Virus record (IMG/VR): IMGVR_UViG_3300035670_007545
Location: 39,275-103,274 of that record
Length of the DNA: 64,000 nucleotides
Strand: one strand, 5' to 3'
Origin: a virus
Part shown: positions 45,765-64,000 of the stretch, piece after piece
How positions within the stretch are numbered: position 1 is the stretch's first letter
Layout: each line of letters starts with the position of its first letter
Translations under genes and position numbers: made by a program
The notes under the pieces: generated by a model
Databases searched by the model: none
The model's input: the letters and a program-made list of their open reading frames with translations, nothing else
Told to the model about the DNA's origin: nothing

Positions 45765-46898
45765 ATGAGATTAATAACATCAGAGAGTGTTTCTTGTGGG
45801 CATCCAGATAAGGTTGCTGATCAGATTTCAGATGCCATTTTGGATGCTTACCTTACATTAGACCCCAATGCAAAGGTTGCAGTTGAAACAATGGTAAAAG
45901 ACAATTGTGTGGTATTAGGGGGTGAAATTACTAGCACTCATACAATTAATTATGAGAACATTATCAAAGCTGTGATTGAAGATATTGGCTACCATGATGC
46001 TAATCATGGGTTTTATTTCAATAATATCACTATAATTAATTTGATTGGAAAACAAAGTCCTGAAATTAATTCTGCTGTTTTACAGAATGGTGAAGAATCT
46101 TTGGGGGCAGGCGATCAAGGTTTTATGACAGGATTTGCAACAAATGAAACAGAAACATATATGCCAATTGGTATGTATGTTGCAAAGAAATTGGCAGATT
46201 ATGTTTATAGTCTTGATTTAGGTCCAGATATTAAAACACAAGTGACAATTGAAGAATGGCCTGATTTTAAAAGAATCCATACCATTTTGGTTTCTACAAT
46301 GCATAGGACATTTACCTTGGAAGAGTTGAGGACAAAACTCACTAAATTCATCTATGATAATAATATGGAACTTCAAGATGATATATTTGCACTTATTGAC
46401 AAGGAAACAAAAATTGTTATAAATCCAGCTGGTTCTTGGCATGTTGGTGGTCCAGTTGCAGATTGTGGTGTTACAGGAAGAAAGATTGTGGTTGACCAAT
46501 ATGGACCATATAACCCTGTTGGTGGGGGTGCATTTAGTGGAAAAGACCCAAGCAAGGTAGATAGAAGTGGTGCTTATTTAGCAAGGTATATTGCAAAAAA
46601 CATTGTAGCAGCAGGGTTTGCAGATAAATGTGCTGTTGAAATTGCTTATATGATTGGCGTTGCTAAACCAGCATCACTAAACATAAACACATTTGGGCAA
46701 TATTCTAATGAATGGTTAGAGGATATTGTTAGTAGGATATTCCCAATGACACCATCTAGCATTATTGATCATTTTAATTTGAAAAGACCAATCTATCTTG
46801 ATTCATCAAGAGGTCATTTTGGAAATGATATAATGCCTTGGGAAAAATTGGATATGGTTTATGAGTTAAAGCAATTAGCGGCTATTCATAAGGTTTAG
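45765..46898 (+). CDS. metK: S-adenosylmethionine synthetase
   Basis: From the ATG at 45765 the protein has 377 residues, slightly short of the usual 380-400. Signature parts are present: 'SVSCGHPDKVADQISDAIL' at the start, 'GAGDQGFMTGFA' (the ATP loop) near residue 115, and 'GGGAFSGKDPSKVDRSGAYL' near 250. It joins methionine and ATP to S-adenosylmethionine, phosphate and diphosphate. A frame from 45732 begins at TTG inside the promoter and is rejected. It converges with and overlaps the 3' end of the next gene by 24 bases. In this window it may feed the several methyltransferases of the glycosylation cluster; that link is inference. Confidence 0.95.
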   Translation: MRLITSESVSCGHPDKVADQISDAILDAYLTLDPNAKVAVETMVKDNCVVLGGEITSTHTINYENIIKAVIEDIGYHDANHGFYFNNITIINLIGKQSPEINSAVLQNGEESLGAGDQGFMTGFATNETETYMPIGMYVAKKLADYVYSLDLGPDIKTQVTIEEWPDFKRIHTILVSTMHRTFTLEELRTKLTKFIYDNNMELQDDIFALIDKETKIVINPAGSWHVGGPVADCGVTGRKIVVDQYGPYNPVGGGAFSGKDPSKVDRSGAYLARYIAKNIVAAGFADKCAVEIAYMIGVAKPASLNINTFGQYSNEWLEDIVSRIFPMTPSSIIDHFNLKRPIYLDSSRGHFGNDIMPWEKLDMVYELKQLAAIHKV

Positions 46899-48044
46899 AT
46901 AATTGTCAATAAAATCCTGGGGGTAGTTAGACTTTTTCATAGTTCTAACTACCTCATTTATTTTATCTTCATCTGATAACCTTGGATTTGAACTAACACC
47001 ATCCTCTATTGGCCAACCATTTAAATCTGATACTGGTAATTTATATTCTTTATTGTCTTTCTTTGATGTGATGTTTTTGACCTTCTCCCAAATTACAGCC
47101 AACAAAGTACTATCATGCCACTTGTATATCATACCTTTATAACCCATTTTCTCCAACATATTTGACATATATATCACCTGCATTTGGTATGGTACATTAT
47201 CACTCCCATACATTTTAGCAGCAATATCATATAAGTTTAATGGATCTTTATTGAAGGGATATAAATCTTTCAAATCAACTTTTGCTGTATATAATGTACC
47301 AGAAACAATCCTTTCTTTTTGATTTAAATTTGTATAAAAGAATAATCTATTTTTCCCCCACCATTGCTCTGAACTTGTGTATGAATGTTTTCCAAAATGA
47401 GATGGATCTAAGTATTCCAAATCTGGTTCACCAAAATGATATAACTTAACATAATCACCTTCTGTTTCCAATTGGGAAAGCCAAAAGTCATTAAATAATA
47501 CTTTATTTGGTTTTTCTGGCAAATTATTTACATCTCCCTTTATAGTTGATTCTAATAATTGCTTCACCTCTGGATGAGATAAAAATAAATCAATATCTTT
47601 TTTTATTCTTTTTGAATCACAAATTGTTGCTTTTTTAAGAAAACGTTTTGGTATTTTATTGTATTCCTTATGCCAAATTTCTATTCTATAATCTTCTGGT
47701 AAATCTAGTAATTTTTTATCATACCAATCTTGCATTCTTTGATTTACATCTTCCTCTGTTGATAGTCCATTTGAATCTAAATATAGATTGTCTATTTTAA
47801 CATAGGCATGGACAATAGTTGAATCCTCCAATTCACCCTCATCATAATCATAAATTAAATCAGCCAATATTAAATAATATCTAATATTTCTATCTGGGTA
47901 TTGTTTTTTTAATTTAACAATAAGATTATCCGCAAAATAATTACAGAACCCATCTTGATAATTATATTCATTACTTGTGTTCCACTTTGGTTCAAGTTCT
48001 TCCCTTAATATTTCTTTTATTGATTGGATTAGTTTCATATACAT
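46875..48044 (-). CDS. Papain-like/transglutaminase-like N-terminus with ADP-ribosyltransferase-like C-terminus
   Basis: Two parts are visible. Residues about 30-95 hold a C-H-D set in the right order: Cys34 in 'GFCNYFADNLIV', His79 in 'TIVHAYVKIDN' and Asp90 in 'LYLDSNG', as in papain/transglutaminase-like domains of mobile elements. Residues about 215-330 contain 'YVKLYHFGEPDLEYLDPSHF', 'NRLFFYTN' and 'GYKGMIYKWHDSTLLAVIWE', the pattern of ADP-ribosyltransferase-like domains in phage polyvalent proteins. Either could modify host or virion proteins. No signal sequence. It is the last gene of the glycosylation cluster strand and is preceded by a GATATATTTATG motif. Both assignments come from motif spacing only. 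Confidence 0.5.
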   Translation of the reverse strand: MYMKLIQSIKEILREELEPKWNTSNEYNYQDGFCNYFADNLIVKLKKQYPDRNIRYYLILADLIYDYDEGELEDSTIVHAYVKIDNLYLDSNGLSTEEDVNQRMQDWYDKKLLDLPEDYRIEIWHKEYNKIPKRFLKKATICDSKRIKKDIDLFLSHPEVKQLLESTIKGDVNNLPEKPNKVLFNDFWLSQLETEGDYVKLYHFGEPDLEYLDPSHFGKHSYTSSEQWWGKNRLFFYTNLNQKERIVSGTLYTAKVDLKDLYPFNKDPLNLYDIAAKMYGSDNVPYQMQVIYMSNMLEKMGYKGMIYKWHDSTLLAVIWEKVKNITSKKDNKEYKLPVSDLNGWPIEDGVSSNPRLSDEDKINEVVRTMKKSNYPQDFIDNYLNLMNSR

Positions 48045-48064
48045 AAATATATCATAATCACATT

Positions 48065-62493: not shown

Positions 62494-62507
62494 AATGTTA
62501 TATTTTA

Positions 62508-64000
62508 TTACCATGAAATATTACCACTACCAGCAGTAAAAGTATATGTTTTATACCCTGCCCTTGCTGTTGATGGTGCAGGTGCAGTAGTTGTACCAGC
62601 TGCTTGACCATTACATACATGAGATGAGTGAATAGTTAATAAATTTGGAAAATTATCTGGATATGAAATAATTACAACGCCAGAACCACCTGAACCAGAC
62701 ACACCTGTACTACCTCTTTGTGCACCGCCACCACTACCAGTATTTTGCACACCATTTCCTCCTGACCCAGGATTTCCTGCTACACCACCATTTGTACCTG
62801 GTGTTCCAGTTGAAGCCGACCCTGAACCAGCCCCTCCTCCTGCATAATCTTTTAAAATACCAGTAATATCTGATTTTTGGGAGTTTCCACCATTACCAAC
62901 CAAATTTAAACCACCTGCACTACCAGCACCACCACCACCACCACCAGCATTAGTGGTTGCAGTACCCCCAATATTACCTTGAATTGGATTTGTGTTTCTG
63001 CTCCCACCCGAAGCACCTCCACCAGCACCACTTGGTGCACCACCACCGCCTGAACCACCTGAACCACCTGGAGTATTTGAATACCATCCACCACCACCTC
63101 CACCAACACTTACTATATTTGCAAAAACAGAATTATTACCTGGAACTTGATTTACATTTGACCCACCCTGACCACCAGGACCAACAGTTACTATATATGG
63201 TGTGTTCTTATTTATTAAGAATGAATTTTCTAAATTGCCCCCACCTCCAGTATTAGTAACTGTTGAACGCATTCCACCTGCTCCACCACCACCATTTCCT
63301 GGTGTTGTTGGGCTATCAGCGCCTCCAGCACCACCACCAGCAACTACAAGGTAATCAACTGTAACAGTTGTTGGAATTGGCGAGGTTGTTGGAGTAATTG
63401 TTCTAGTTGGAGTTATGCTATTTGTTGGTGTTATGGTATTTGTAGGAGTTATAGTGTTGGTAGGTGTTATAGTATTTGTTGGTGTTATAGTGTTAGTTGG
63501 TGTTATGGTATTTGTTGGTGTAATTGTTGGTGTTATAGTGTTAGTAGGTGTTATGGTTGGAGTTGGTGTTTCACTACTTGTTGGAGTTTGTGTTGGTGTT
63601 ATAGTTTGAGTTGGTGTTTCACTACTTGTTGGAGTTTGTGTTGGTGTTTCTGTATTGGTTGGTGTTATGGTTGGAGTTGGTGTTTCACTACTTGTTTGAG
63701 TTTGTGTTGGTGTTATAGTTTGAGTTGGTGTTTCACTACTTGTTGGAGTTTGTGTTGGTGTTTCTGTATTGGTTGGTGTTATGGTTGGAGTTGGTGTTTC
63801 ACTACTTGTTGGAGTTTGTGTTGGTGTTATAGTTTGAGTTGGAGTGATTGTATTTGTAGGTGTTACTGTATTAGTTGGTGTTATGGTTGGAGTTGGTGTT
63901 TCACTACTTGTTTGAGTTTGTGTTGGTGTTATAGTTTGAGTTGGTGTTTCACTACTTGTTGGAGTTTGTGTTGGTGTTTCTGTATTGGTTGGTGTTATGG
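62508..64000 (-). CDS. Tail fibre 3 (5' end outside window): Thr-Pro stalk and Gly-rich domain
   Basis: The frame is open from the stop at 62508 to the right edge, so the N-terminus is missing. An internal ATG at 63272 is not the start, because the Gly-rich domain already begins upstream with 'VDYLVVAGGGAGG'. The junction 'SPIPTTVTVDYLVVAGG' is almost the same as in fibre 1, showing module sharing. The Gly-rich domain runs for about 215 residues and ends with a strand region closing 'YKTYTFTAGSGNISW'. The Thr-Pro stalk fills 63390 to the edge. Confidence 0.8.
   Translation of the reverse strand, partial: ITPTNTETPTQTPTSSETPTQTITPTQTQTSSETPTPTITPTNTVTPTNTITPTQTITPTQTPTSSETPTPTITPTNTETPTQTPTSSETPTQTITPTQTQTSSETPTPTITPTNTETPTQTPTSSETPTQTITPTQTPTSSETPTPTITPTNTITPTITPTNTITPTNTITPTNTITPTNTITPTNTITPTNSITPTRTITPTTSPIPTTVTVDYLVVAGGGAGGADSPTTPGNGGGGAGGMRSTVTNTGGGGNLENSFLINKNTPYIVTVGPGGQGGSNVNQVPGNNSVFANIVSVGGGGGGWYSNTPGGSGGSGGGGAPSGAGGGASGGSRNTNPIQGNIGGTATTNAGGGGGGAGSAGGLNLVGNGGNSQKSDITGILKDYAGGGAGSGSASTGTPGTNGGVAGNPGSGGNGVQNTGSGGGAQRGSTGVSGSGGSGVVIISYPDNFPNLLTIHSSHVCNGQAAGTTTAPAPSTARAGYKTYTFTAGSGNISW
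63390..64000 (-). repeat. Coding tandem repeats of the fibre 3 stalk (continues past window)
   Basis: Repeated blocks coding TPTITPTNT and TPTQTPTSSE recur. A block starting near 63553 returns near 63665, 63781 and 63883 with few changes. Confidence 0.8.

Follow-up and report, generated by a model that had tools for sequence, protein, structure and literature searches.

Organization of the locus

We have analyzed a stretch of 64,000 nucleotides (hereafter the window) that forms the final 64 kb of the 103,274-base IMG/VR record IMGVR_UViG_3300035670_007545, from a large tailed bacterial virus. The study concerns a cluster in which genes for fibers with long threonine- and proline-rich (Thr-Pro) stalks are accompanied by ten packed genes for putative glycosyltransferases (GT) and methyltransferases (MT), and which probably encodes a mucin-type O-glycosylation system acting on those stalks (Table 1). 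From position 46875 to the contig end, the genes of this unit all lie on the minus strand, with short gaps or overlaps, and the GT/MT block (48065-57809) is located downstream of two Thr-Pro fibers. An earlier model-made reading of the same DNA (the first-pass annotation) had placed the fibers directly upstream of the block and on the same strand. The strand was confirmed; since genes matching phrog_7759 lie between the fibers and the transferases, "directly upstream" has to be read as separated by one small gene. The same reading had started the unit at 46875. Its ten genes were recovered within the block, and the segment 46875-48044 turned out to hold a weakly matched YunG-like gene with no GT or MT assignment. 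A 270-kb contig (L003) encodes GT60-A, HtrL-fusion and sheath proteins 100% identical to those of the window; besides this contig, only loci L005 and L006 of 79 loci contained relatives of the YunG-like gene.

Seven of the ten block genes passed the Pfam cut-off. The Skp1 N-acetylglucosamine (GlcNAc)-transferase type predicted earlier for two genes was indeed found twice, as PF11397 matches of GT60-B (E 8.8e-65, 219.9 bits) and GT60-A (E 2.3e-67, 228.4 bits), the cut-off being 21 bits. We take PF11397 to be equivalent to CAZy family GT60, and "GT60-type" designates here a PF11397 match. The HtrL-, PLOD- and GT10-type genes proposed at first pass were likewise above the cut-off (HtrL_YibB, 1.2e-18; GT_PLOD, 9.4e-16; GT10, 1.2e-10), as were FkbM (3.9e-14) and RMNT_CmcI (8.1e-10). 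The earlier count of ten GT/MT genes therefore stood for seven; one more had a weak MetW match, and no Pfam family was matched by 52361-53074 or 56002-56556. The former had been described as a GT-A protein, and its Asp-Ala-Asp motif makes it possibly GT-A.

Table 1. Genes of the proposed glycosylation unit and associated features of the window (aa, amino acids)
Feature	Position	Strand	Basis or remark
Thr-Pro fiber 1, cut by contig end (stalk + Gly_rich_2)	62508..63998	-	Whole 1434-aa form in L003:998-5299
Small phrog_7759 protein, pairs with fiber 1	62101..62514	-	phrog match
Thr-Pro fiber 2, 1228 aa: N-terminal domain, 565-aa stalk, Gly_rich_2	58403..62089	-	
Small phrog_7759 protein, pairs with fiber 2	57861..58403	-	phrog match
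GT60-type transferase A (GT60-A), proposed initiator on stalk Thr	56559..57809	-	PF11397, model and fold match
Methyltransferase-like candidate by position only; variable cassette	56002..56556	-	No family matched
FkbM-type methyltransferase	55354..55995	-	Pfam
Possible methyltransferase	54750..55388	-	Weak MetW, below cut-off
GT_PLOD-type glycosyltransferase, 245 aa	54044..54781	-	Pfam
GT10, fucosyltransferase-like	53074..54057	-	Pfam
Possibly GT-A, Asp-Ala-Asp motif; variable cassette	52361..53074	-	No family; relatives in 12 loci
CmcI / rhamnosyl O-methyltransferase type	51729..52358	-	Pfam
Fusion: methyltransferase + HtrL/YibB + C-terminal part (last ~555 residues, second core component)	49368..51725	-	
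GT60-type transferase B (GT60-B)	48065..49321	-	PF11397
YunG-like, 3' end of unit, membership doubtful	46875..48044	-	Below cut-off
Third Thr-Pro fiber, 699-aa stalk, possibly also a substrate	24829..28821	-	
phrog_7759 protein, pairs with third fiber	24180..24566	-	phrog match
metK (S-adenosylmethionine synthetase), converges on cluster	45732..46898	+	TIGR01034

The Thr-Pro stalks are selected at the protein level

The stalk of fiber 2 contains 243 Thr and 103 Pro residues. That of fiber 1 spans at least 238 aa in the window and 591 aa in the whole form carried by the 270-kb contig. A third fiber, absent from the first-pass annotation, has the longest stalk of the window. Four stalk sequences were measured, two of them being the cut and whole forms of fiber 1, and they consisted of 40-45% Thr and 17-18% Pro over 238-699 aa. 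The stalks are thus domains dense in Thr/Ser and Pro, as are the acceptors of mucin-type glycosylation.

When Thr/Pro codons one repeat (six codons) apart were compared, positions 1 and 2 differed in 11-22% of the cases and position 3 in 52-67%. With the first two codon positions conserved and the third divergent, the repeats are kept for their residues and not as DNA; that is, they are selected at the protein level.

Two further features of the fibers were recorded. Residues 1-390 of fiber 2 matched no family and by eye contain trypsin-like His, Asp and Gly-Asp-Ser-Gly (GDSG) motifs. Each of the three phrog_7759 proteins pairs with a Thr-Pro fiber, and relatives were found in 29 of 50,697 phage records, pelagiphages and cyanophages among them.

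GT60-A is predicted to share the fold of mucin-initiating enzymes

CAZy GT60 consists, according to PMC8724618, of polypeptide alpha-GlcNAc-transferases that start mucin-type glycosylation in protists; what mainly sets them apart from their animal counterparts is that they lack a C-terminal ricin-like domain, and the initiator of Skp1 glycosylation is related to them. The characterized members start this glycosylation with alpha-GlcNAc in Trypanosoma cruzi, where it is placed on Thr, and in Dictyostelium (PMC3769586, PMC8724618), and the T. cruzi activity was assayed with a peptide rich in Thr and flanked by Lys-Pro-Pro (PMC3769586). Given these activities, Thr is by analogy a likelier acceptor than hydroxyproline.

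A GT60-A model was built from 52 sequences, distant bacterial ones included, with a predicted local distance difference test (pLDDT) of 92.2 and a predicted template modeling score (pTM) of 0.84. The 29 best PDB entries were all polypeptide N-acetylgalactosamine (GalNAc)-transferases (Z 22.3-19.2), and the next one, a different enzyme, scored 17.4. The root mean square deviation (rmsd) was 3.4 over 275 aligned residues for the best match, and mostly 3.2-3.8 over 260-285 residues for the GalNAc-transferases. This Z ranking was a second look at the top 1000 chains of Foldseek, whose own list agreed in placing the mucin enzymes first. A first model, made from 42 close sequences, had a poor catalytic middle (pLDDT 72) and a Foldseek list headed by TarS/RmlT, which were discarded as the nearest structures once the 52-sequence model put the mucin enzymes first. 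In searches of PDB chains, the GT60-A sequence found no match at E ≤1 and the A3 profile gave one chance-level hit; the fold assignment hence depends on the model.

Asp93-Ser94-His95 and Gly-Glu-Glu 204-206 were invariant in the 52 sequences, the first being an Asp-x-His motif that presumably binds the metal. GT60-A therefore combines a PF11397 match above the cut-off with a predicted GT27-like GT-A fold carrying this motif, which are the features of the GT60 family. The ~90 residues that follow the transferase domain were left uncovered by most structure matches, and the family scan of GT60-A found no lectin-domain family.

Thr-Pro stalks accompany GT60-type genes in related and distant viruses

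Of 550 IMG/VR relatives of GT60-A, the 80 best were examined for co-location with flanks of up to 10 kb, and any open reading frame (ORF) with a stalk of at least 60 aa was counted as a Thr-Pro ORF. Such an ORF was present in 73 of the 80 loci, within 200 bases in 51; it was upstream on the same strand in 65 and on the opposite strand in none, and downstream in 9 of the 76 loci having 5 kb there. Dereplication at 95% protein identity left 34 representatives; 28 of these had at least 1 kb of upstream sequence, and a Thr-Pro ORF was found there in 25. In the controls, a Thr-Pro ORF was found in 1 of 80 random viral loci (660 kb vs 1,388 kb, about half the sequence), in 2 of 80 GT60-type loci read backwards, and in 21 of 80 tail-sheath loci of related phages (3-kb flanks). 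The co-occurrence in related genomes that the first-pass annotation had proposed to look for was thus found, with a stalk upstream in 65/80 loci vs 1/80 random ones.

Fifteen records chosen for a stalkless gene just upstream or for a short upstream piece were searched whole, ten of them being without any upstream stalk. The Thr-Pro pattern was detected in 11 and the reversed pattern in none. Regarding the seven loci that had no Thr-Pro ORF, three came from records with the pattern elsewhere, and the other four were pieces of 54, 36, 11 and 8 kb. Overall, 76 of the 80 GT60-type records had the signal either in the locus itself or in another part of the record. On the upstream side of the GT60-type gene, the contig ended within 3.5 kb in 30 of the 80 loci; on the downstream side, this was so in one. 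It is as if assemblies break at Thr-Pro stalks; because contig ends cluster at the stalk side, assemblies probably under-report them.

The association extended to distant groups queried with the genes of Xanthomonas phage XacN1 and of L428, a marine metagenome-assembled contig (44% and about half identical to that of the window, respectively). The stalk signal was observed in 13 of 17 records of the XacN1-like group and in 10 of 11 of the L428 group, 2 of these 23 having a single match, and in the L428 group stalks were near the gene in 9 of 11 loci. According to the first-pass annotation, its inference would fail if such clusters were regularly present in stalkless phages; the opposite was seen, both in the 76/80 records and in the distant groups (23/28).

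Among the 50,697 phage records, a PF11397-type gene (E 1e-5) was found in three, XacN1, RAS14 and CM1. The Thr-Pro-Thr pattern exceeded its reversed form in all three (240/24, 107/20 and 107/20), with at least seven stalk-bearing ORFs in XacN1 and six in RAS14. The corresponding counts in nine large phages without the gene were 5/14 (RaK2), 7/16 (GAP32), 6/7 (121Q), 7/22 (Atu_ph07), 7/13 (SCTP-2), 2/11 (phiKZ), 3/8 (G), 3/2 (phiR1-RT) and 4/2 (PA5oct). For XacN1, a published proteomic study reports at least two glycoproteins (PMC5852040).

An apparent conserved core with exchangeable tailoring genes

The C-terminal part of the HtrL fusion was found in 79 of the 80 GT60-type loci, some matches being cut by contig ends, and the exception has 1.6 kb downstream. 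Near-full-length relatives of its C-terminal 556 residues occurred only in XacN1, RAS14 and CM1 among the 50,697 phage records, two cyanophages matching a quarter of this region. Conversely, loci anchored on this C-terminal part, whose records partly overlap the GT60-A set, contained a GT60-type gene in 70 of 80 cases and a Thr-Pro ORF in 58; where at least 5 kb was available upstream, the figures were 60 of 60 and 52 of 60.

In the 34 representatives, 133 genes immediately following the GT60-type gene were examined; they included Glyco_transf_25 (21), HtrL_YibB (18), GT10 (8), FkbM (7), GT_PLOD (4) and Methyltransf_24 (4), with sulfotransferases, a carbamoyltransferase, TylF and others as single cases. 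For the 129 genes of random loci, there was no glycosyltransferase among the 25 families listed of 48. The CmcI-type gene of the window recurred in 19 of 79 other loci, and its other cassette genes in 3-12. Since the cassette genes recur patchily and the core nearly always, the system looks like two conserved core genes with exchangeable tailoring genes.

Proposed mechanism

Taken together, the data are best explained by a phage-encoded mucin-type O-glycosylation of the stalk Thr residues, which we consider the probable function of the cluster. This reading rests on gene content, co-location, co-occurrence, predicted fold and codon-level selection, from which we infer the substrate, the sugar, the order of the steps and the benefit. 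Acting in the host cytoplasm, GT60-type enzymes would add alpha-linked N-acetylhexosamine (GlcNAc or GalNAc), taken from the uridine diphosphate (UDP)-sugar of the host, to many stalk Thr. The HtrL-type fusion and the variable glycosyl- and methyltransferases would then lengthen, fucosylate and O-methylate these sugars, and the fibers would become part of the virion as glycosylated rods, stiff and resistant to proteases, bearing a phage-specific glycan. The central inference of the first-pass annotation, that phage enzymes glycosylate the stalks, has accordingly received strong indirect support from co-location, the co-occurrence in named phages, the predicted mucin-initiating fold and the XacN1 glycoproteins. 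Its further suggestion of an effect on binding, stability or immune visibility gained no such support.

A broader proposal seems to us evenly balanced between being right and wrong: that the GT60-type initiator and the HtrL-type fusion, as a two-gene core with exchangeable glycosyl-, methyl-, sulfo- and carbamoyltransferase cassettes, form a widespread phage mucin system that gives fibers strain-specific glycans. The core would be present in phages infecting Bacteroidota and Gammaproteobacteria (by recorded hosts or gene content), and perhaps other groups.

Several observations weigh against stalk glycosylation. The third fiber has no transferase neighbors, the nearest transferase being ~19 kb off. 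No upstream Thr-Pro ORF was seen in 15 of the 80 GT60-type loci, and the neighboring fiber is stalkless in several (e.g., L004-L006, L049, L063 and L070). Most stalks of the XacN1-like group are far from the gene, a Thr-Pro ORF being within 10 kb in 6 of 17 loci, four of these on the other strand. In bacterial genomes, a Thr-Pro ORF lay no farther than 10 kb from the gene in 4 of 18 loci, in two of them on the other strand, so that gene and stalk are less closely associated outside phages; part of these 18 contigs may be phage. XacN1, RAS14 and CM1 represent about one lineage, because they share the gene order around the gene or are near copies, and the accessible text on XacN1 names no protein for its glycoproteins (PMC5852040). 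The PLOD-type gene weakly matches phrog_61, named 2-oxoglutarate (2OG)-Fe(II) oxygenase.

Stalks also occur without the gene. In a sample of Thr-Pro-anchored records of at least 40 kb (37 of 80 being dropped as shorter), the gene was present in 19 of 43, three of which were also in the GT60-A locus set, and absent in 24; at ≥100 kb it was present in 10 of 16. Random-anchored records of at least 25 kb (46 of 80 dropped as shorter) had it in 0 of 34 cases (Fisher p 2e-6), and those of at least 40 kb in 0 of 18 (p 5e-4), with tests that treat related phages as independent samples, which they are not. Sheath-anchored records, a sample too small alone (65 of 80 loci were dropped, being <25 kb or part of the GT60-type set), had the gene in 4 of 15, all four with stalks, and stalks in 9 of 15. 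The gene is hence a much better predictor of stalks than stalks are of the gene. Of 62 genes beside stalks in gene-less records, at most 2 were transferases, of two one-member GT2-type families (25 of 26 families listed); these neighbors come from 15 of the 24 loci, 4 of the 24 being without a Thr-Pro ORF of at least 45 aa. Stalks therefore need no such gene, at least nearby, and its replacement there by other transferases was rejected, since at most those two neighbors fit.

Alternative substrates

The enzymes could instead glycosylate other virion proteins (the capsid, the tail tube, or stalkless LamG or Gly-rich fibers), with the stalks as bare rods that simply lie in the same host-interaction region. 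The stalkless fibers adjoining the gene in several loci and the stalks existing without it are in line with this, as are the capsid and tail tube glycans known from mycobacteriophages (PMC12619734). Such a substrate would not account for stalks in 76/80 and 23/28 distant records, also where they are non-adjacent, and fits poorly with the predicted mucin-initiator fold; we regard it as unlikely.

Remodeling of host surface glycans, for superinfection exclusion or serotype change, would suit Glyco_transf_25, a lipopolysaccharide-type family and the commonest one downstream (21/133 genes). It appears improbable, given that the cluster is packed with fiber genes on one strand, that the modeled initiator resembles peptide-acceptor enzymes, and that the co-occurrence with stalks would be left unexplained.

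The first-pass annotation had hinted at a Skp1- or collagen-like acceptor, hydroxyproline or hydroxylysine. The Skp1-type and PLOD-type domains of the cluster, the phrog_61 match and the 7 of 23 records with a PF13640 oxygenase speak for such a residue in the stalk. In a search for this one 2OG oxygenase family, PF13640 was not found in the 270-kb contig of this phage, XacN1 or RAS14; hosts or other oxygenase families could supply the activity. The Skp1-type hydroxyproline route was set aside on this ground, no prolyl hydroxylase having been found in the 270-kb contig by that search. The collagen PLOD/GLT25D system was also rejected, as the GT_PLOD-type protein matches the PLOD GT domain only and the stalks are Thr-Pro, not Gly-X-Y. 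Overall, a hydroxylated acceptor seems very improbable.

Decoration of hypermodified DNA bases, known in phages (PMC12619734) and supported by a TET-associated glycosyltransferase match in 2 of 133 neighboring genes, is the least credible option, with Tet_JBP in 0 of 23 records (a search without positive control) and the Thr-Pro association left unexplained.

Relation to known glycosylation systems

Stalk Thr glycosylation by the GT60-type enzymes would have its nearest counterparts in T. cruzi TcOGNT-2 and in Gnt2 and Skp1 Gnt1 of Dictyostelium (GT60), which share PF11397, a GT-A fold like that of the polypeptide GalNAc-transferases, here predicted, and a Thr-rich, Pro-containing acceptor. 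The difference is that the genes studied here belong to tailed phages and would act in the bacterial cytoplasm on fiber stalks. The metazoan GT27 enzymes are the closest solved structures to the model and act on similarly dense Thr/Pro acceptors, whereas identity is 11-14%, and the ~90 residues beyond the transferase domain fall outside most structure matches, with no lectin-domain family in the scan.

Gram-positive serine-rich repeat adhesin clusters show a similar arrangement, with the repeat adhesin gene adjoining a variable set of cytosolic transferases. These adhesins depend on other initiators, GtfA/GtfB, and on another secretion route, SecA2/SecY2, and are found on the cell surface, not on a virion.

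Phage virion glycosylation as such is already known. In mycobacteriophages, glycans are carried by the capsid and by tail tube C-termini (Freeman 2023, quoted in PMC12619734); here, repeated Thr-Pro fiber stalks are proposed instead. XacN1 possesses both core genes (GT60-type and HtrL), Thr-Pro stalks and reported glycoproteins, yet its stalks lie mostly far from the core genes, and the accessible text of its description reports no fibers and no Thr-Pro link (PMC5852040). Our literature search, by title and start of abstract and with subscription papers mostly outside its scope, found no proposal of mucin-like fiber glycosylation in phages among the papers listed.

If the proposal is correct, mucin-type O-glycosylation, familiar mainly from animals and protists, extends to bacteriophages. 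This would explain the sugar-gene clusters of some phages, give repeated Thr-Pro stalks a role, and make GT60-type enzymes candidate cytosolic tools for mucin-type glycosylation. The exchangeable glycan cassettes suggest a means by which phage surfaces vary, and this would parallel the variation of O-antigens in bacteria. The substrate question is testable at once in the named phages RAS14 and CM1.

Other genes of the window

The metK gene could possibly supply the methyl donor for the methyltransferases of the cluster. It was present in 2 of 23 records only, so it is lineage-specific and was ruled out as a regular partner.

The gene at 42228-45551 (+) codes for an entire receptor-like beta-barrel protein of the outer membrane (CarboxypepD_reg + OMP_b-brl_4) of Bacteroidota look, odd in a phage, with a relative (89%) in L006. 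Eight paralogous genes in a row at 32509-36438 (-) encode proteins of 133-195 aa with leucine-rich-like repeats; the one scanned matched no Pfam family. An IS605 OrfB/TnpB-like gene (8746-9936, -) lies within the structural gene region. Finally, a Fe/Mn superoxide dismutase is encoded at 36416-37105 (+), and its relatives were found ~10 kb downstream of the GT60-type gene, on the other strand, in 38 of the 80 loci.

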